This document shows, piece by piece, positions 2,640-20,020 of a DNA stretch of 21,374 bases. Each line of letters starts with the position of its first letter. The stretch's first letter is position 1. The translations under genes were made by a program, and so were the position numbers. Location of the stretch: positions 1 through 21,374 of IMG/VR virus record IMGVR_UViG_3300020185_000298. One strand, 5' to 3'. The notes beneath the pieces were generated by a model, which was not told the origin of the DNA, ran no database searches, and saw only the letters and a program-made list of their open reading frames with translations. Source of the stretch: a virus.

Positions 2640-3139
2640 TGGCGACCGGACTATTTATAACAAGAACAGATTTAGCTAAACACACGATTCTAAACGGAAA
2701 CGTAGATACTGACAAGTTTATACAGTTTATTAAGATTGCACAAGAAATGCATATTCAAAACTATTTAGGCTCGGCATTATACGATAAAATAGAAGCAGAT
2801 GTTATCGCCGGTAATCTTACAAATCCATATCTAGATTTAGTTAAAGACTACGTTCAGCCTATGCTTATTCATTTTGCTATGGTAGACTATTTACCGTTTG
2901 CGTCTTACGAGGTAAAAAACGGCGGTTTATTTAAACATAAAAGCGAAACGTCGGATAGTGTCTCAAAAGATGAAACAGATTTCTTAACGCAAAAGCATAG
3001 AAATTTCGCAGACTTTTATACGAGACGATTTATAGATTATATGAGTTTTAATCAATCCACATTTCCGGAATACTTTAGCGGTACAAACGACGATATGTAC
3101 CCCGATAGAAATGCAAATTTTGTAGGTTGGGTTTTATGA
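2639..3139 (+). CDS. Head-tail connector/neck-like phage protein
   Basis: A 166-residue, mostly helical protein. The N-terminal half has the pattern FITRTDLAKHTILNGNVDTD followed by QNYLGSALYDKIEADV, then a helical stretch PMLIHFAMVDYLPFASYEV and a polar tail. Proteins like this (I recall a DUF6712-type family) sit after the portal in Bacteroidota phages, where head-completion or adaptor proteins are expected. Its start overlaps the last base of the portal stop (TAATG), and its stop overlaps the next start (ATGA). The connector role is inferred from position and fold impression; no catalytic residues are seen. Confidence 0.65.
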   Translation: MATGLFITRTDLAKHTILNGNVDTDKFIQFIKIAQEMHIQNYLGSALYDKIEADVIAGNLTNPYLDLVKDYVQPMLIHFAMVDYLPFASYEVKNGGLFKHKSETSDSVSKDETDFLTQKHRNFADFYTRRFIDYMSFNQSTFPEYFSGTNDDMYPDRNANFVGWVL

Positions 3140-4335
3140 TAAAATTAGCAACAATACCAAGCGGTTATAAAACGAGTAAATTATACTCAGTCGTCCCAAA
3201 TGACGGTTTGGGGGATTTTACTTTTGTTAGAACTACGGAAGCAACTAGAATTAATGAAGACGGCTTAATAGAAACTTTAGACGCAAACATACCTAGACTA
3301 GATTACAGTAAAAGTGGTTGTCCTGAATTATTAATGGAAAGAGCGTCTACAAATTTAATCACTTATAGTGAAGATTTTAGTGGGTGGATTAATACTTTTT
3401 CAACAGACACTTTTGGTGCAATTAGTCCGAGTGGACTTGCAAATGCAACAACATTAACAGATGATGGTAATGGTGGTGCTTCAGGAAATGTAAGAATACA
3501 AAAAAATGGTATTTCAATAAATGCTACGACTGTATATACTTTTAGTTGTTTTTTAAAACCAAATCCTAATAATATAGTCGAAATTAAAACTGCAAATGAT
3601 GACGCAATAAGAGGTGGTACTTTTGATTTAAGCACTAAAACATTTACACCTTTAAATAGTGAAACTGGAAATATAGAATTAATTTCAAATGATTGGTATA
3701 AAGTCTATGTAACGTGGACGAGTGGCTCAGATACAAGTATAGCTTTAAGAGTTGGATTTCCTAATATAACAAGAGACGGAACTAATTCTTTTATTTTATG
3801 GGGTACACAACTAGAGCAAAGCACAAAAGCAACGAGTTATATTCCAAGCTTATTAGGAACGGCTACGACTAGAGCGATTGACCGAATAACCGATTTAACA
3901 ACAATAGATGTAACGTCAGACGATTGGACTTTGTTTATTAATGCTGATTACACAGACCTGAATTTTAGTTTTGGTTGTATATCTATAAACGACGGAGACG
4001 ACGACAATAACTTACGAATAATGAATATTGAAAGTAGTGAAGAGGTTAGAGTGACTAATAGAGTTGGAGGTTCCGGTGTAAATAACTATAATATATTTTA
4101 TGGTACTTGGGGTTATAAATTAAAAATAGGAATAGTATCTACTAGCAATGGAATTGATATTTATGTAAACGGACAATTAGCTTCGTCTCAAACGTCCGGC
4201 AGAATAGATATGTCAGGAATGACAAACATAGGTTTTACGGACGGCTCAGGCGATAATTTTTTAGGTAGAATCTCAGACTTTAGATATTATAATACAAACC
4301 TATCAAACGACGATATAATTAAACTAACAGAATAA
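3136..4335 (+). CDS. Tail/receptor-binding protein with CBM-like and LamG-like domains
   Basis: I place the start at ATG 3136, overlapping the previous stop, giving 399 aa; an in-frame TTG at 3127 is less likely. Residues from about 25 have DFTFVRTTEATRINEDGLIE, then PRLDYS and LLMERASTNLI. The middle is a jelly-roll-like module starting at TYSEDFSGW and ending around WGTQLEQSTKATSYIPS. The C-terminal 140 residues resemble a concanavalin A/LamG fold, with IDIYVNGQLASSQ, and end in ISDFRYYNTNLSNDDIIKL. Such modules usually bind sugars, which fits host recognition at the tail tip or as a fibre. It is a paralogue of the next gene, which shares the same framework. No coiled coil or membrane segment is seen. 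Confidence 0.75.
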   Translation: MIKLATIPSGYKTSKLYSVVPNDGLGDFTFVRTTEATRINEDGLIETLDANIPRLDYSKSGCPELLMERASTNLITYSEDFSGWINTFSTDTFGAISPSGLANATTLTDDGNGGASGNVRIQKNGISINATTVYTFSCFLKPNPNNIVEIKTANDDAIRGGTFDLSTKTFTPLNSETGNIELISNDWYKVYVTWTSGSDTSIALRVGFPNITRDGTNSFILWGTQLEQSTKATSYIPSLLGTATTRAIDRITDLTTIDVTSDDWTLFINADYTDLNFSFGCISINDGDDDNNLRIMNIESSEEVRVTNRVGGSGVNNYNIFYGTWGYKLKIGIVSTSNGIDIYVNGQLASSQTSGRIDMSGMTNIGFTDGSGDNFLGRISDFRYYNTNLSNDDIIKLTE

Positions 4336-6746
4336 TGGCAAATACAATCGGTTGGGGACAAGGCTCTGCAAATAATACAAACCAATGGGGACGAGGTTCG
4401 ACTAACAATTCAATTAGTTGGGGAAGTATTTACGGTTTATCTCCTAGTGGAGAAACAAATATAATAGGAGGACTTCAGCCTACATTTGAATTAAAGTACG
4501 ATTTAATAACAACAGACTTTACTTTTACTAGAGCATCTTTTGGAACAAGAGTTAATGAGTTCGGACTAATAGAAACGGTTACAGATTTAGGTTCAGATTT
4601 AATTCAGAATGGTTCTTTTGATGAATTAGGTTCTGAAAGAGTTATAAACGGTGATTTTGAAAATGGCGAAAATGATTGGAATTTTGGTGGCGATTGGACT
4701 TTAGTAAACGGAACTGCTGAAATACTAACATCTACACAGAGTTATTTAAGGTCAGATAATGACCGAATTCCTTTAACAGTTAAAACATATAAATTACAAT
4801 ATGAAGTTGTTACAACAAATGGAAATAATTTTAGACTTGCAGGTGGTAGTTCAGCATTTGGAACTGTTACTTTAGATTCTGCAACTGTTGGAGTAAAAAC
4901 TGTTTGTTTAACAAGTAATGGTACTCAGGCATATTTACAATTTAATCAAAATGCATTTAGAGGCTCAATAGACAACATATCAGTTAAACAAGTAGACCCA
5001 AATGATGATTGGACTTTGGGAACAGGTTGGAATATTGAAGATGGTAAGGCTGCAAGTAATGGGACTGCAAGTAATTTAGACCAAAGTGGTACATTTTTAA
5101 GTGGTGAAACCTACAAGGTAACATTCGATGTTTTAAATTACGTTAGTGGAGATATAAGGTTTAGATTTACAGGAGCAAGTAATGAGAACGGAACTCTTAG
5201 AAGCGCAAATGGTACTTACACAGAATACATAACATTAACTAATACTCAAGGTATTTTAAGGTTTCCCTCATCTGCGTTTAATGGCTCAATAGACAACGTG
5301 TCAGTTGAACAAGTATTAGAAGATGACGTACCACGAATAGATTATACGGGTAGTACATTTGATGTAGCTGTTTTAGGAAATGAGTTGATTGATTATAGCG
5401 CCATAAGTTCGCCTTCAAGTTCTTGGAGTTTAGTTAATGGTAAGTGGTTTTTTGATGATACTACAAGTGGGTTTCTTTTAACAGAAGCTTTTGATGTTGT
5501 TGTAGGAGAGCAATACGAGATAACGGTAGATGTTAGTATAGCAAGTGGTAATGCTAATTTTAGAGTTACAAGCGGAAACGGGCAAACAAGAGTATTTAAT
5601 TATACGGACTTTCCTAATGGAGTAACTAAATTTATAACTACAGTTGTAGGTGTCGATGGTGCCGTAAATAGAATATATGCTCCGGTAAATTTAGTAGATA
5701 ATCCTTTTACATTAAATAGTATATCTATCAAGAAAGTTACTGCATACACAACAACAGATAAAGGTGCTTTTTTACTTGAACCAATTTCTACTAATTTTAT
5801 TGATTATAGTGAAGATGTAAGTGGTGCTTCTAATTGGGGAGCGAATAGTGTAGCAACAACAATCAATATAACAACATCTCCTGATGGTACTCAAAACGCT
5901 GATTTAATTCAATCGACTGATGCTACTTCTTGTTTTATTGATGACAGTACTTTGACTTTTACAATAGGAAATACTTATACTTTTTCGGTGTTTGCTAAAA
6001 AAGGAAATAATGATTGGATAAGAACTGCACACGTTTCAAGTGGTTCAACAGGGTGTTGGTTCGATTTAGAGAATGGTGTTGTTGGTACAGTTAATTCAAC
6101 TTCAGCAACTATTGAAGATTACGGGAATGGTTGGTATAGATGTACTAATACTTTTGTAGCTACCCAAGCAACAGGTGGTAATCAAGTATTTATAGGAATA
6201 TGTGATGCTAATGGAAGTACAGATGCAGGTGCAAGTGGTCAAAATGATTATGTTTGGGGTATGCAAGTAGAAGAATTATCATACGCAACATCTTACATAC
6301 CTACAAGTGGAACAACAGTAACAAGAGCGCAAGAATCTTCTGTTAAAAATAACGTAAACGGTTTATTTGACGATAATGTTGGAAGTATATATTTAGCTTA
6401 TGATGGAGTCTTAACAAGTGGGACTACATTAAACAATATGAATCCTTTTAGATTATATGGTCAAGGCAGTAACAGAATTAGATTGTATTATACACCAGAC
6501 GCAGATTTTTTAGGTTCAAGTGTAGACTTTGAAAATGGTGGTAAAATAGCTTGGAGTTGTAACGGAACTACTATATTAACATATATCAATGGTGCTTTAG
6601 TAGACACACACACCATAACGAGTAATTTTACTACACTTACCAATTTTATATTATCTACACCTTTTATGACGCATAGAATTAATGATATAAAAATCTACGA
6701 TAAAGCATTAACAGATGATGAACTAATTAATTTAACAACGATATGA
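4335..6746 (+). CDS. Large modular tail fibre/receptor-binding protein
   Basis: An 803-residue protein starting with a W-G repeat (MANTIGWGQGS, NQWGRGS, SISWGS), a head-piece type I recall in flavobacterial phage tail genes. Then comes DFTFTRASFGTRVNEFGLIE, shared with the preceding protein. Between GLIE and PRIDY the gene carries two extra modules of about 100-120 residues, ending FRGSIDNISVKQV and FNGSIDNVSVEQV. A third lies between PRIDY and FLLEPISTNFIDYSED. Then a jelly-roll-like module and a C-terminal LamG-like domain (TYINGALVDTHT, then INDIKIYDKALTDDELINL). I infer sugar binding and host attachment. The extra modules are poorer in CG-containing words than the core phage genes. Start overlaps the previous stop (TAATG). 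Confidence 0.75.
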   Translation: MANTIGWGQGSANNTNQWGRGSTNNSISWGSIYGLSPSGETNIIGGLQPTFELKYDLITTDFTFTRASFGTRVNEFGLIETVTDLGSDLIQNGSFDELGSERVINGDFENGENDWNFGGDWTLVNGTAEILTSTQSYLRSDNDRIPLTVKTYKLQYEVVTTNGNNFRLAGGSSAFGTVTLDSATVGVKTVCLTSNGTQAYLQFNQNAFRGSIDNISVKQVDPNDDWTLGTGWNIEDGKAASNGTASNLDQSGTFLSGETYKVTFDVLNYVSGDIRFRFTGASNENGTLRSANGTYTEYITLTNTQGILRFPSSAFNGSIDNVSVEQVLEDDVPRIDYTGSTFDVAVLGNELIDYSAISSPSSSWSLVNGKWFFDDTTSGFLLTEAFDVVVGEQYEITVDVSIASGNANFRVTSGNGQTRVFNYTDFPNGVTKFITTVVGVDGAVNRIYAPVNLVDNPFTLNSISIKKVTAYTTTDKGAFLLEPISTNFIDYSEDVSGASNWGANSVATTINITTSPDGTQNADLIQSTDATSCFIDDSTLTFTIGNTYTFSVFAKKGNNDWIRTAHVSSGSTGCWFDLENGVVGTVNSTSATIEDYGNGWYRCTNTFVATQATGGNQVFIGICDANGSTDAGASGQNDYVWGMQVEELSYATSYIPTSGTTVTRAQESSVKNNVNGLFDDNVGSIYLAYDGVLTSGTTLNNMNPFRLYGQGSNRIRLYYTPDADFLGSSVDFENGGKIAWSCNGTTILTYINGALVDTHTITSNFTTLTNFILSTPFMTHRINDIKIYDKALTDDELINLTTI

Positions 6747-15106: not shown

Positions 15107-15879
15107 AAACAATAAAACTACTAGACGGCTCAATACATAATATTAAAGAGCTAGAAGACAATATGTACGAAGATGAGTTTTACTACGGCTACTTAGGAAA
15201 GGTAGCTTTAAGTAGTAGTTCTTGTAAGTTATTGCTCGACAGTCCTAAGACGTATCACTATATTACAAAGTACGGTCAGGCTACAAGTCAAGCGATGCGC
15301 GACGGTCAGTTGTTTCACACTATGATACTTGAACCGGAGAAGATTAATCAATTCGTTTTTGTAAACGTACAGTCAAAGAACACTAAGGCTTACAAAGAAG
15401 CAAAGGCGTATCACGAAAATGTTTTCACAATTAAAGAAAAGCAAGACGCAGAACGATTAGTCGATGCCTTTCATAGAAACGAGAATGTTAAAAAATATAT
15501 AGTCGATGCTCAATACGAAGTACCAAAAATAGGTGTAATAGAGGACATACCTTTTAGAGCAAAAGCAGATGTTTTATTAAACTCTAATGGAATAGTAGAT
15601 TTAAAGACTACGACCGACGTAAAGAATTTTCAAATTTCAGCTCAGAAATGGAAATATTATAATCAAGTTTACATATATTGTGAATTGTTTGGGATTGACT
15701 ACGAAAATTTTACCTTTGTATGTATCGACAAAAAGAGTCTAGACATAGGGGTTTTTAAATGCTCAGAAGAATTCTACCTACGAGGTAAAGAAGAAGTAGG
15801 AAACGCAATAGAACTATATAGAAAGTTTTTTGCAGAACCTGAATCGCTAGACGATTACATATACGAAGGGACGTTATGA
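15103..15879 (+). CDS. RecE/YqaJ-type exonuclease (PD-(D/E)XK, DUF3799-like)
   Basis: A 258-residue phage exonuclease of the RecE C-terminal type, expected to chew 5' ends at double-strand breaks to give ssDNA for annealing. Signatures in order: SSSSCKLLLDSPKTYHYI (37-54) near the start, RDGQLFHTMILEPEKI (66-81) with His72, then FRAKADVLLNSNGIVDLKTT (151-170) with Asp156, Asp166 and Lys168 (the D…DxK core), and YYNQVYIYCELFG (185-197) with Gln188. That is the full set for this family. A matching annealase is not obvious here, but the OB-like and SSB-tip proteins at 9357-10008 could serve. Overlaps both neighbours (ATGA). Confidence 0.85.
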   Translation: MKTIKLLDGSIHNIKELEDNMYEDEFYYGYLGKVALSSSSCKLLLDSPKTYHYITKYGQATSQAMRDGQLFHTMILEPEKINQFVFVNVQSKNTKAYKEAKAYHENVFTIKEKQDAERLVDAFHRNENVKKYIVDAQYEVPKIGVIEDIPFRAKADVLLNSNGIVDLKTTTDVKNFQISAQKWKYYNQVYIYCELFGIDYENFTFVCIDKKSLDIGVFKCSEEFYLRGKEEVGNAIELYRKFFAEPESLDDYIYEGTL

Positions 15880-16268
15880 AGCACAAAGATTCAATAGAGG
15901 AAGTTATATCGCTAGTCAATGAGTATTTAGGAATAGATTGTACTAAACATACTAGACGAAGAGATTATTGCGACGCAAGAAGTATCGTAGTTAAAATAAT
16001 GAAAGACGACTTTTACATCGGTTGGACTATGATTGCGACATACTTCGAAGAACGTGGAACGCCTATTGGCACACACGCGAGTATGATAAATTTATACAAG
16101 AGATTCGATGAGGTTATAAAATACAATGCTTTAGTAAAATCGTGTTACTATGAGATAGTCGGAGAAATGCTTACGGCTAACGATATGGAAAAACTTATAG
16201 AAAGAATCCGTCGTATTAAAGACATTGATAAAATAATTAAAATAGAGCAATGCTTAAATAATTTATAA
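15876..16268 (+). CDS. DnaA domain IV-like DNA-binding protein
   Basis: A 130-residue protein that resembles the C-terminal origin-binding domain of DnaA, without an AAA+ ATPase part. Evidence: RRRDYCDARSIVVKIMKDDF (27-46), corresponding to the DnaA helix with R-x-A-R, then GWTMIATYFEERGTPIGTHA (49-68) and SMINLYKRFDEVIKY, matching the signature helix that includes DHTTVLHA in DnaA (here GTHASMINLY). In phages such proteins probably bind a replication origin and load the helicase. That it sits between the exonuclease and the cassette below, with the helicase at 10063, fits a replication role. The other possibility is a plain helix-turn-helix regulator. Confidence 0.72.
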   Translation: MKHKDSIEEVISLVNEYLGIDCTKHTRRRDYCDARSIVVKIMKDDFYIGWTMIATYFEERGTPIGTHASMINLYKRFDEVIKYNALVKSCYYEIVGEMLTANDMEKLIERIRRIKDIDKIIKIEQCLNNL

Positions 16269-16582
16269 TGAATAAAGAAGAATTAAACGAACTATTATTA
16301 AATGCTAAATGGAAAACATCTTCATCAAAAAAATATGAAAAGTTACCACATCAATATTCTTTAAAAGAAACTTGGACTGATGAAAATTTGTTTTATAAAG
16401 TTTGTAAAGCTATAAGGGCATTAGGTATTAAGAAACCTTTTTTTAGAACTTTTTTTACTTATTATGAAATAGGCGAGTATCAATACTTTATTATGAATGA
16501 TGAAATAGAAAATCAAGGACTTATTAATAGAGCAGAAATTAAAAACCAAAAAAAATATAATCTAAATAATTATGGAAATTAA
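16268..16582 (+). CDS. Unidentified protein with PHQYSLKETW and INRAE motifs
   Basis: A 104-residue protein with PHQYSLKETWTDENLFYKVC, then AIRALGIKK, TYYEIGEYQYFIM and NQGLINRAE. The pattern, PHxYTL-x2-W, a helix with I-R-x2-G, Y-x2-G-YxYW and finally INR, recurs in small uncharacterised bacterial and phage proteins that I have seen near DNA-metabolism genes, but no function is known to me. Its base composition is more AT-rich than the upstream operon, like the next two genes, with which it may have arrived. Overlaps the previous stop (TAATG) and the next gene by 11 bases. Confidence 0.6.
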   Translation: MNKEELNELLLNAKWKTSSSKKYEKLPHQYSLKETWTDENLFYKVCKAIRALGIKKPFFRTFFTYYEIGEYQYFIMNDEIENQGLINRAEIKNQKKYNLNNYGN

Positions 16583-17162
16583 ATATATTATGATGACTTG
16601 CGACAATCGTAATGATAATCGCATTAAAGAATACAAAAAAGAAATACCAAATCTGATTATAAATCACGACGACTTTCCAAAATCATCTTCCGGAAAGTTT
16701 TTATCTACTGCTTGGAATAATTATTTAAGAGGGTGGGAATTAGCCGGAGACAATCCAACAGTTCAATTTGACGACGACATCATACTTACATCAAATTTTA
16801 TAAATAAATTAAATTCTGTTATTAAAAAAAACCCTAATGATGTTATACAGTTTTTTAGTATGCGTAAAGACGATTTAACCATAGGAACTAGGTATGTATC
16901 AGGAAGTAAATTTATGATGCAACAATGTTATTACCTACCAAAAGGTGTAGCTAAAGGAATTTTGTCTTTAAAAAATGAATGGTATAATTTATGTAAAGAC
17001 GGAGACAAAGCACCAACCGATTTATTGATGGCAGAATATTTTAAAAGAAATAAAATAAACTACTTAAATTGGTGTCCCAATCTAGTAGACCATATTGTTG
17101 GAAAAAGTGCTATTGATAGTAGACGTAGTAGTAAAAGACAAAGTAAAACTTTTAAACTATAA
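16572..17162 (+). CDS. GT-A glycosyltransferase (GT25-like)
   Basis: A 196-residue protein with a GT-A nucleotide-sugar fold. The N-terminus has a strand and loop (MEIKYIMMTCDNRNDNRI), then the DXD-type motif TVQFDDDIILTSNF, with Asp67-Asp69 to hold the metal and UDP-sugar. Later DKAPTDLLMAEYFKRNK and NWCPNLVDHIVGKSAID recall the acceptor side of GT25-type enzymes, which end with a Ser/Arg-rich tail like RRSSKRQSKTF. It would move a sugar to an unknown acceptor; hydroxylated DNA bases, a virion protein and host surface sugar are all possible. It lies directly before a putative oxygenase in a more AT-rich block, suggesting transfer. Confidence 0.7.
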   Translation: MEIKYIMMTCDNRNDNRIKEYKKEIPNLIINHDDFPKSSSGKFLSTAWNNYLRGWELAGDNPTVQFDDDIILTSNFINKLNSVIKKNPNDVIQFFSMRKDDLTIGTRYVSGSKFMMQQCYYLPKGVAKGILSLKNEWYNLCKDGDKAPTDLLMAEYFKRNKINYLNWCPNLVDHIVGKSAIDSRRSSKRQSKTFKL

Positions 17163-17166
17163 TGTT

Positions 17167-17679
17167 ATGAATGTAAAATGGGAAACACCTTTAAAAAAAA
17201 ATCAATTATCTAATCCGATTATTGAAAAACATCAAATACCTTTAAAGTTAATTGATTTAAGTATTTTTAATGAAGAAGATTTTAACTCTGTATTAAATGC
17301 TAAAGCTCAACATCAATTAAAAACGTGGGGTGGCGCAGAAAATACATCAAAACCGCATTGGATTGGAGTAAAAAAATCTACACCATTACACACAGACCCA
17401 AGATACCCTAGATATTCTTGGCAATTAATTATTAAAGTAGATAATTTTGTTTTAAGAGGACACGACAAAATTGAAACCGAATTAAAAGAAGGAACTATAT
17501 TTTTATTAGATACACATAGTCCGCACCAATTATACGCAAAATCAAAAGATGCAAAATATTATTTAGCTTGTAGTATGGATTCAAAAGAAAAAGTGAGTTA
17601 CGCAATAGCATTAAGAGAATTATGTACCTATGCTAAACAGAATTTAATTTTAAATAATGTAAACAGAATTACTAAATGA
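17167..17679 (+). CDS. Probable Fe(II)/2-oxoglutarate oxygenase
   Basis: I use ATG 17167 (170 aa), four bases after the glycosyltransferase stop; frames upstream (from 17095) would overlap that gene and give a poor N-terminus. It has a double-stranded beta-helix signature: STPLHTDPRYPRYSWQLIIK with H-x-D (His75, Asp77), GTIFLLDTHSPHQLYA with the distal His (His120, or His117), and a following KDAKYYLACSMD strand, where a basic residue (Lys130) sits where 2OG is usually bound. Such enzymes hydroxylate amino acids, small molecules or DNA bases. The partner glycosyltransferase makes hydroxylation followed by sugar transfer attractive, but the substrate is not shown. It is only moderately similar to known families. 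Confidence 0.58.
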   Translation: MNVKWETPLKKNQLSNPIIEKHQIPLKLIDLSIFNEEDFNSVLNAKAQHQLKTWGGAENTSKPHWIGVKKSTPLHTDPRYPRYSWQLIIKVDNFVLRGHDKIETELKEGTIFLLDTHSPHQLYAKSKDAKYYLACSMDSKEKVSYAIALRELCTYAKQNLILNNVNRITK

Positions 17680-18839
17680 GAAATGGAGCGTTGCTATATA
17701 AACACAAAAACGTCTACGACTCAGCGTTAGAACGTATAAACTATTTGTTTGACGAGTTCGATAACGTCGTTGTTGGTTTTTCCGGTGGCAAGGATAGTAC
17801 GGTAGTTTTAAATCTAGCGTTAAAAGTAGCAGAGGAAAGAGACCGGCTACCATTAAAAGTAATGTTTTTAGACCAAGAGGCTGAATGGCAAAACGTAATT
17901 GATTATGTGAGACAGATAATGTTAGACGAAAGAGTAGACCCAATGTGGTTTCAAATACCAATTAGGCTATTTAATGCGACGTCTAATACAGACCATTGGC
18001 TAGAGTGTTGGAGTCCAAAAGACGAGGGAAATTGGATGCGTTCAAAAGAAGATTTTTCATTTAAAGAAAATATATACGGGACAGATAGATTTTACGATAT
18101 GTTTCAGGCTATATTTGAACATCACTTTAAAAACGAAAAGGCTTGTTACTTAGCCGGTATTAGAACAGAGGAAAGTCCGACACGATTTCTAGCAGTTACT
18201 AGCGACGCGACATATAAATACATAACATACGGCAAGAAGCTAAATCGTAAAATGCAACACTATACTTTTTATCCGATATACGATTGGAGTTTTACGGACG
18301 TTTGGAAATCAATTCACGACAACGATTGGTCTTATACTAAAATATATGATTACCAATTTCAACACGGAATATCTATAAAGAGTATGCGTGTAAGTAATTT
18401 ACATCACGAAACATCTGTCGAGTCCTTGTATTATTTAGAGGAAGTAGAAAAGGAAACGTGGAACAAACTTACAAAGAGATTATCAGGAATAAGTACTGCC
18501 GGTAGGCTCGGACGCGACAACTTCTTAAAGGTAAAGAAACTGCCTTATATGTTTAAAGATTGGAAAGAATACCGAGACCATTTACTAGAGAATCTTATTA
18601 CAGACGAAAAGCATCGTTTGATCTTCCGAAAAAAGTTTAAAAGATTAGACGATAAATATGATTTTGCATTTCATAAAGATAAATTACATAAAGTACAAGT
18701 ACAGTCAATTTTGGCTAACGATTTTGAGTTTACAAAAATAACTAACTATGAGCGACACCCCGACGTAGATACTTGGAGAAAATGGAAACGGGGAATAACA
18801 AACGCTTGGACTGACACAAATAAATATATAAATGGATAA
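17676..18839 (+). CDS. PAPS-reductase-like PP-loop protein (IbrA/DUF3440-like)
   Basis: A 387-residue protein with the PP-loop SGGKDST (36-42), an ATP-pyrophosphatase signature, following NVVVGF. The core has MFLDQEAEW and YLAGIRTEESPTRF, then the C-terminal region of the DUF3440/IbrA type (FYPIYDWSFTDVWKSIHD, LSGISTAGRLGRDNFLKVKK and RHPDVDTWRKWKRGITNAW at the end). The ECGLH active-site end of true PAPS reductase is absent, so it should not reduce sulfate; it probably adenylates another substrate. It is followed at once by a ParB-like gene, as IbrA is followed by IbrB. Role in the phage is open (regulation, DNA modification or counter-defence). Overlaps both neighbours. Confidence 0.78.
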   Translation: MRNGALLYKHKNVYDSALERINYLFDEFDNVVVGFSGGKDSTVVLNLALKVAEERDRLPLKVMFLDQEAEWQNVIDYVRQIMLDERVDPMWFQIPIRLFNATSNTDHWLECWSPKDEGNWMRSKEDFSFKENIYGTDRFYDMFQAIFEHHFKNEKACYLAGIRTEESPTRFLAVTSDATYKYITYGKKLNRKMQHYTFYPIYDWSFTDVWKSIHDNDWSYTKIYDYQFQHGISIKSMRVSNLHHETSVESLYYLEEVEKETWNKLTKRLSGISTAGRLGRDNFLKVKKLPYMFKDWKEYRDHLLENLITDEKHRLIFRKKFKRLDDKYDFAFHKDKLHKVQVQSILANDFEFTKITNYERHPDVDTWRKWKRGITNAWTDTNKYING

Positions 18840-19491
18840 ATTAAAATACCTTAAAAAACTAGAGGGCGAAGAGCTTTTATTAGAAATAGAAAAGATACAA
18901 CAACACTTGTTTGAGATAAGTCCTTTAAAGTCTCAGCCGGTATCTAGAATACGTTGGGTTCCTATCGAACAAGTAACGTCAAATGATTATAACCCTAATA
19001 GCGTTGCGACAAATGAAATGAGATTATTATACACTTCAATATTACACGACGGTTATACTCAGCCGGTAGTTACGGTGCGAGACGACGAGAACGACCGTTA
19101 TGTTATTGTGGACGGATTTCATAGATACCTGACTTGTAAATCAAATGAGGATATTTTAAATAGGAATATGGGACGTCTGCCTATTGTAGTTATAGAAAAA
19201 GATATAAACGACCGTATGGCTTCGACTGTCCGGCATAACCGAGCAAGAGGTAAACATTCAATAAACGGAATGTCTAGTATGGTATTTGAAATGCTAGAGA
19301 ACGGTTGGGAAGATGCGGACATTTGTAATGAGTTAGGTATGGAGTCTGAGGAACTGATTAGACTAAAACACATAACCGGATTCAGCAAACTATTTAAAGA
19401 CGTAGAATATAAAAAGTCTTGGGAAACTAAGAATCAATTACTAATTAAAAAACAATTTAAGAATGAATATCCAAAAGAAAAAATTATCTGA
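18832..19491 (+). CDS. ParB-like protein (IbrB-like)
   Basis: A 219-residue protein with a ParB/sulfiredoxin-like domain: IRWVPIEQVTSNDYNPN (40-56), HDGYTQPVVTV (72-82), VDGFHRYLT (93-101, the G-x2-R motif) and the ParB box RHNRARGKHS (134-143). A helix-turn-helix follows (WEDADICNELGMESEELIRL, 159-178), then a basic end. This architecture, right after a PAPS-reductase-like protein, matches IbrB of the IbrA/IbrB pair. ParB-type domains bind DNA and use CTP in chromosome ParB; other members act as nucleases or kinases. Which applies here is not visible. Overlaps the previous gene by 8 bases and the next by 29. Confidence 0.75.
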   Translation: MDKLKYLKKLEGEELLLEIEKIQQHLFEISPLKSQPVSRIRWVPIEQVTSNDYNPNSVATNEMRLLYTSILHDGYTQPVVTVRDDENDRYVIVDGFHRYLTCKSNEDILNRNMGRLPIVVIEKDINDRMASTVRHNRARGKHSINGMSSMVFEMLENGWEDADICNELGMESEELIRLKHITGFSKLFKDVEYKKSWETKNQLLIKKQFKNEYPKEKII

Positions 19492-20020
19492 GATAAAACC
19501 ATATTGGAGAAACGCTCGTAAAAACGATAAAACAGTAGAGGCCTTAAAACAGTCTATTAAGAAATACGGCTATACGCAACCAATTAACATAGACCAAAAT
19601 AATGTTATCATTACCGGACACGCACGTTATATTGCTTTAATGCAGTTAGACTACAAAGAAGCGTTTGTAATCGTTGTAGATTATTTAGGAGAAAAAGAAG
19701 TTAAAGAATATCGTATCGCAGACAACAAAACTCACGAATTAACAATGTGGGACAATGAGGAATTAGTATTAGAAATGCGAGAGATAAACAACAATGAAGA
19801 TATGCAGACGTTCTTTCCTAATATTAATTTAAATAATTGGCTAGAGGATTCAGTAGGATTTAACGTAAATGATATTACGACTGAAAACATAGGAGACACA
19901 GAAGAAAAAATATTTGGTCAAATGACTAATATAAACACTCAGGCTTTAGACCAAACAATCGACGTAATGTGTCCGCATTGTATGGAAGAGTTTGCACTTA
20001 AAAAATCAGAACTACAATGA
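19463..20020 (+). CDS. Second ParB-like protein with C-terminal CxxC
   Basis: A 185-residue protein. The ParB part has IKPYWRNARKNDKTVEALKQ, then YGYTQPINIDQNNVIITGHA with GHAR (52-55), and YRIADNKTHELTMWDNEE (83-100). In many phage proteins this exact pattern is the front half of a ParB-DNA methyltransferase fusion; here the methyltransferase is absent. Instead a flexible part leads to MCPHCMEEFAL (169-179), a single C-x2-C pair, half a zinc ribbon. It overlaps the first ParB gene by 29 bases and TerS by 4, so it is part of the packaging operon; a DNA-binding role near packaging sites is an inference. Confidence 0.75.
   Translation: MNIQKKKLSEIKPYWRNARKNDKTVEALKQSIKKYGYTQPINIDQNNVIITGHARYIALMQLDYKEAFVIVVDYLGEKEVKEYRIADNKTHELTMWDNEELVLEMREINNNEDMQTFFPNINLNNWLEDSVGFNVNDITTENIGDTEEKIFGQMTNINTQALDQTIDVMCPHCMEEFALKKSELQ

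Follow-up and report, generated by a model that had tools for sequence, protein, structure and literature searches.

A predicted glycosyltransferase and a putative Fe(II)/2-oxoglutarate oxygenase as exchangeable cargo beside a PAPSR-ParB gene pair in uncultured phages

Our analysis of the virus record IMGVR_UViG_3300020185_000298 from IMG/VR (positions 1 to 21,374; this whole stretch of 21,374 nucleotides (nt) is referred to as the window) revealed a cassette of three genes in a conserved genomic setting. The cassette encodes a small domain of unknown function (g1), a glycosyltransferase (GT) and a double-stranded beta-helix (DSBH) protein (Ox) that is probably an Fe(II)/2-oxoglutarate (2OG) oxygenase. 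It is followed directly by a gene for a PAPS-reductase-like protein (PAPSR) and two ParB-domain genes. Dozens of uncultured phages carry the Ox-GT pair, and relatives of the window phage hold different genes in the same slot. On balance we favour the view that the three genes serve as interchangeable cargo in a phage locus for DNA hypermodification, which would first oxidise and then glycosylate DNA.

Gene order and cargo exchange

Starting from a hand-made DNA pattern for HTDxxYPRxxW, our scan gathered relatives of Ox, some with as little as about 30% identity, from 51 viral loci. The recurrent gene order was ParB-[g1]-GT-[x]-Ox-PAPSR-ParB, with start and stop codons mostly overlapping and a 4-nt overlap between Ox and PAPSR in most loci. 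GT was located immediately upstream of Ox in 37 of the 43 Ox genes that were non-redundant and testable, PAPSR immediately downstream in 37, and both in 36. In the exceptions L036, L070, L071 and L072, Ox still lies within the PAPSR neighbourhood, and only a second copy in L053 (3731-4282, about 2 kb from the block and without a GT) and a remote homologue in Caulobacter phage CcrBL9 stand apart from it. The coupling of oxygenase and transferase proposed in a first-pass annotation of the window, made from the sequence alone, is thus well supported; that annotation limited the unit to three genes and so ended it too early, PAPSR and ParB being part of the conserved block. Since phages with terminases of several types carry the block, it is not confined to one phage lineage. 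The Ox-GT pair was not found in any of the isolated phages searched.

The optional gene x encodes a TylF/Methyltransf_24 enzyme (sugar O-methyltransferase-like) in L012 and L019; in L048 a gene of this type follows Ox. In L058 and L062 (7046-8011), the gene separating GT from Ox codes for a NAD-dependent, GalE-like epimerase. Both enzyme types are typical of sugar decoration. A pair of Amidoligase_2 and GGACT/AIG2 genes adjoins the block on the opposite strand in L038, L045, L047, L068 and others. In the near-identical contig L001/L004 the Ox frame (3515-4008) is broken near the C-terminus, probably by an assembly indel; tblastn spans the full protein.

The four relatives L080, L081, L083 and L084 encode PAPSR, ParB1, ParB2 and TerS proteins 69-82% identical to those of the window phage, and exo is 71-74% identical where held. 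Their slot contains a different GT, a g1 of 30-32% identity where held, and no Ox. L002 carries the same cassette without AT bias, and L003 has a GT with 77-78% and an Ox with 58-60% identity, both AT-rich in a genome that is otherwise GC-richer. Taken together, these patterns indicate an exchange of cassettes at one constant location, and the earlier description of the cassette as inserted holds in that relatives carry other genes in the same slot.

Base composition agrees with lateral exchange. The three open reading frames (ORFs) at 16268-17679 overlap or abut, as had been described (g1 and GT share 11 nt, Ox and PAPSR 4 nt by ORF analysis), and this is the minimum-GC stretch of 1412 bases anywhere in the window. 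GC content is 0.222, 0.291 and 0.277 for g1, GT and Ox, compared with 0.334 for the whole window, and the observed/expected CpG ratios are 0.53, 1.13 and 0.92 versus 1.37-1.99 for the other genes tabulated. Pooled third-position GC (GC3) of the cassette is 0.173 and that of other window genes 0.299 +/- 0.059. The composition scan, with its check of GC and codon use, thereby bore out the reading of the block as more AT-rich and poorer in CG words than its neighbours. Two long tail-type genes at 3127-6746, whose codon use deviates more than that of any other gene in the window, equal the cassette in their low GC3, and a lateral origin argued from composition alone is therefore weak. Repeats at the cassette boundaries in the window were limited to a 9-mer, taken as chance.

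A scan for PAPSR returned 80 loci, 44 of them non-redundant and with enough upstream sequence. Ox was encoded in 6/44, each time together with a GT, and some GT was present in 23/44 (Fisher p 0.022). Other slot cargo consisted of N6/N4 DNA-methylase-like genes bearing the motifs SDPPW and DPxCGMG (12/44 loci), another methyltransferase-like family, marked by EPPF and GDxxCGYG (9/44), GNATs (14/44) and other GTs, as well as an AdoMet decarboxylase beside a DNA-methylase-like gene (2/44). The decarboxylase gene directly follows an N6/N4 DNA-methylase-like gene in L128 (2969-3974) and L138 (1391-2285), and also in L130 and L140; this pairing suggests aminopropyl transfer from decarboxylated S-adenosylmethionine (SAM) to DNA. 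Judged by sequence, the slot cargo appears to comprise tools of nucleic-acid or sugar modification, with the methylase-like genes pointing to DNA.

Features of the cassette proteins and their neighbours

The GT model (pLDDT 92.5, pTM 0.90) has a GT-A fold, and its best solved fold neighbours include mimivirus R655, LH3 and GLT25D1/COLGALT1 (E 1e-6 to 1e-4), with sequence identities of 9-16% in the fold alignments. These matches from the structure search support the GT25-like GT-A assignment made earlier. By profile the match to Pfam Glyco_transf_25 reached 12.7 bits, below the cut-off of 24. The acidic triplet FDDD (DDD being residues 67-69 of the GT encoded in the window) and a C-terminal signature H174...S...R..S.TF are conserved in 35 relatives, and D69 is invariant. 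Sequence searches against the PDB gave nothing meaningful for either GT or Ox.

The predicted Ox structure (pLDDT 94.8, pTM 0.90) shows the strand order of a DSBH oxygenase, in which H75-x-D77 follows strand II and precedes strand III, and strand VII starts with H120. Across 37 sequences the HxD...H triad H75, D77 and H120 is invariant together with R82, and the invariant residues further include P73, L74, Y80, P81, D115, T116, H117, S118, P119 and Q121. A DSBH fold with an intact metal site, which the first-pass annotation had named as support for its putative oxygenase, was thus predicted. Among the viral fold neighbours, aspartyl/asparaginyl hydroxylases and 2OG-Fe(II) oxygenases predominate, and solved ones are cupin isomerases mixed with 2OG oxygenases at low TM-score. 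Ox matched Aspartyl/asparaginyl hydroxylase PF05118 with 12.3 bits, below the cut-off of 22.6, had no lysyl hydroxylase match in the Pfam scans, and received no name from Pfam, PHROGs, NCBIfam or PADLOC. Based on the model, Ox is probably a divergent non-heme iron hydroxylase that would use 2OG as cosubstrate; we infer the cosubstrate, since the relatives share no basic residue beyond the distal His that could anchor it.

No close relatives of Ox were found by tblastn at stringent cut-offs among 50,697 phage records, nor was Ox found in the 398 other genomes of the phylum of one metagenome-assembled genome. A weak match in the Caulobacter phages CcrBL9 and CcrSC became significant with the family profile and represents a remote homologue. 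CcrBL9, an isolated phage, encodes it as gp285 (L011 2761-3348), with HTD..YPR and DSH..H motifs and no GT detected nearby. At another place in its genome (737-1285), the relative L014 codes for one more 2OG-Fe(II) oxygenase, of ordinary type (PF13640).

The g1 protein carries the motif W-x-F-A-K-T...PH-x-Y...YW.M...INR and has no name in Pfam, PHROGs, NCBIfam or PADLOC. In L003 and L036 its domain is fused to a SAM methyltransferase-like domain, and profile comparison indicates the same type of fusion in gp156 of Microbacterium phage Hendrix (E 2.5e-5). When the g1 alignment was used to search genomes, almost all matches fell in the generic methyltransferase part carried by a few of its rows, and the result was discarded.

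The genes flanking the cassette are listed in Table 1. The two ParB-domain genes and PAPSR that had been noted downstream are present. The DnaA-like gene that had been named upstream is well recognised in its L014 positional counterpart (Bac_DnaA_C, E 2e-12), whereas the window copy gives only a weak replication-initiation match (E 0.03). For ParB2 there is a match (E 3.5e-20) to the ParB portion of type II DNA methyltransferase models. PAPSR matches DndC and BrxP below their cut-offs (DndC 30.3 bits versus 290.4), and its CysH score is also below cut-off. An identity as a true, assimilatory PAPS reductase was rejected because the protein has only two cysteines and lacks the catalytic motif ECGLH; its PP-loop would suggest an ATP-dependent activating role.

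Table 1. Genes in and around the cassette slot of the window
Gene	Position	Strand	Description
DnaA-C-like	15876..16268	+	marks the left edge of the slot in this family of phages
g1	16268..16582	+	small domain of unknown function; 104 aa; ORF call
GT	16572..17162	+	GT-A glycosyltransferase (phrog_854-like; GT25-type fold neighbours); 196 aa
Ox	17167..17679	+	double-stranded beta-helix, probable Fe(II)/2-oxoglutarate oxygenase; 170 aa; best start ATG 17167
PAPSR	17676..18839	+	PAPS-reductase-like PP-loop protein with DUF3440 (IbrA-like, DndC-related); fixed block partner
ParB1	18832..19491	+	ParB-domain protein 1 (phrog_2159)
ParB2	19463..20020	+	ParB-domain protein 2 (phrog_620)

Potential function and alternative explanations

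In the proposed pathway Ox would hydroxylate a base in phage DNA, and GT would add a sugar from a nucleotide-sugar donor onto the hydroxyl made by Ox. In sister loci, the sugar O-methyltransferase-like enzyme might decorate this sugar further, or the GalE-like epimerase might make the donor. The PAPSR-like PP-loop enzyme and the ParB-domain proteins could supply ATP-driven activation and the loading or targeting of DNA, and the sugar-capped base might protect the phage genome against restriction and similar defences. DNA appears to be the likeliest acceptor, with a probability that we put slightly above even, based on the methylase-like cargo in the slot and on fixed neighbours similar to DndC and to the ParB portion of DNA methyltransferases. 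Of the earlier interpretation, the GT fold, the DSBH, the coupling and the exchange were all upheld, and DNA as the acceptor is backed by genomic context alone. A broader reading, which we hold tentatively and at somewhat under even chances, is that of a modular platform in which a fixed PAPSR-ParB chassis beside the terminase accepts interchangeable chemistries. These may include oxidation with glycosylation, DNA-methylase-type transfer, GNAT acylation and aminopropylation based on decarboxylated SAM, and the outcome might be combinatorial, largely unknown modified bases in uncultured phages.

Several results weigh against DNA hypermodification. Library scans matched neither Ox to the Tet_JBP profile nor GT to the TAGT profile, the TM-scores in the Ox fold searches are low (0.3-0.5), and no conserved Arg or Lys, the usual 2OG anchor, follows H120, for which R82 may substitute. 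The others are the observations on which competing explanations can draw. Some of the nearest GT folds named above belong to protein-modifying enzymes, the GTs of collagen hydroxylysine, and the fold neighbours of Ox include the protein-acting aspartyl/asparaginyl hydroxylases; distant actinophage relatives of GT, in phiAsp2 and GMA2, are located among tail genes. Mycobacteriophage capsids are reported to be glycosylated (PMC11256854 citing Freeman 2023). Ox might then hydroxylate a capsid or tail residue for glycosylation by GT, as lysyl hydroxylase and GT25 do on collagen. We regard this modification of virion protein as unlikely, though as the main rival and worth serious weight; the fold neighbours correspond at superfamily level only, and DNA is preferred over virion protein because, in the loci examined, the block sits next to the terminase, with replication-type genes on its other side and at a distance from the genes for head and tail, and because DNA-methylase-like genes replace the cassette in the same slot. 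It is also conceivable, but improbable, that Ox, rather than being an oxygenase, produces the sugar donor of GT as an isomerase or epimerase of the cupin type that acts on sugars. Cupin phosphoglucose isomerases do top the PDB fold ranking of Ox by E-value, and a GalE-like epimerase is encoded between GT and Ox in L058 and L062; however, both genes are present there, so the epimerase is no stand-in for Ox. The triad is moreover placed as in oxygenases and invariant, and the viral fold neighbours are mostly hydroxylases.

Phage glycosyltransferases often modify host-surface glycans, and the weak GT25 (LPS) profile match would fit a modification of the host surface or phage receptor of the seroconversion type. 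This explanation seems rather improbable, given that no flippase or membrane GT was seen in the block, that GT is tightly coupled to Ox, PAPSR and ParB, and that the slot holds DNA-methylase-like alternatives. Finally, the PAPSR-ParB pair is also found without GT or Ox, which leaves its role in the chemistry unproven, and the cassette is compositionally foreign; the GT-Ox pair could merely hitch-hike in a hot spot with a function unrelated to PAPSR and ParB. Against this, which we judge very improbable, stand the 4-nt overlap of Ox and PAPSR in most loci with several terminase types and the restriction of the cargo across phages to a few related chemistries.

Comparison with known systems

Hypermodification of phage DNA by an oxygenase and a GT is known from TET enzymes with associated glycosyltransferases. 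The block shares with TET/JBP and TAGT systems the pairing of these two activities and the presence of accessory modifying enzymes, but Ox belongs to a different, shorter DSBH family and the block is bracketed by PAPSR and ParB. T4-type pathways and TAGT have been covered elsewhere (PMC13390438). With the glucosyl-hydroxymethylcytosine of T4 the block would have in common a sugar on a hydroxylated base; however, the hydroxymethyl group of T4 is made at the nucleotide level (PMC13390438), and no hydroxymethyl synthase was recognised near the block. The collagen system (LH3, GLT25D1) and mimivirus R655 likewise combine a hydroxylase with a GT25-type transferase, although GT shares only the low fold-alignment identity given above and Ox is no lysyl hydroxylase by profile.

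The PAPSR-ParB pair resembles IbrA/IbrB of E. coli ECOR-9, for which we know of no GT or Ox cargo; as in that pair, a PAPS_reduct and DUF3440 gene adjoins a ParB-domain gene in the window, according to Pfam scan and gene order. For IbrAB, activation of the eib genes of prophages has been described (Sandt 2002, as cited in PMC10434257). Dnd phosphorothioation, with DndC and the ParB-type DndB, offers a PAPSR-type enzyme and ParB-fold partners as well, and the DndC match is significant but partial; PAPSR differs in scoring far under the DndC cut-off and in its two cysteines without ECGLH, and no other Dnd gene was recognised nearby. Among isolated phages, the Microbacterium phages Hendrix, Leaf and Rasputia encode a GT (31-34% identity, Hendrix) and a PAPSR (about 39%) in one gene run, which in Hendrix also holds a g1-type domain fused to a methyltransferase. 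In contrast to the block, they lack Ox, encode a GNAT and more GTs instead, and have no ParB annotated in the stretch. In Hendrix (L008 4576-8977), and also in L076 and L077, the GTs, the g1-type methyltransferase (Hendrix), the GNAT and PAPSR are located at the genome end.

We found no description of the combined block in the open-access literature searched. Hypermodification by an oxygenase and a glycosyltransferase is already known in kind, and the combined block with PAPSR-ParB would be a variant of it. If the proposed function is true, it would add an oxygenase family and an oxidise-then-glycosylate route undescribed in the phage records and family libraries searched, and the constant PAPSR-ParB chassis beside the terminase could be used to find more base chemistries in uncultured phages. 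It would also give a testable role to the PAPSR-ParB pair, which is widespread in phages, has lacked an explanation and usually carries an annotation as sulfur metabolism.
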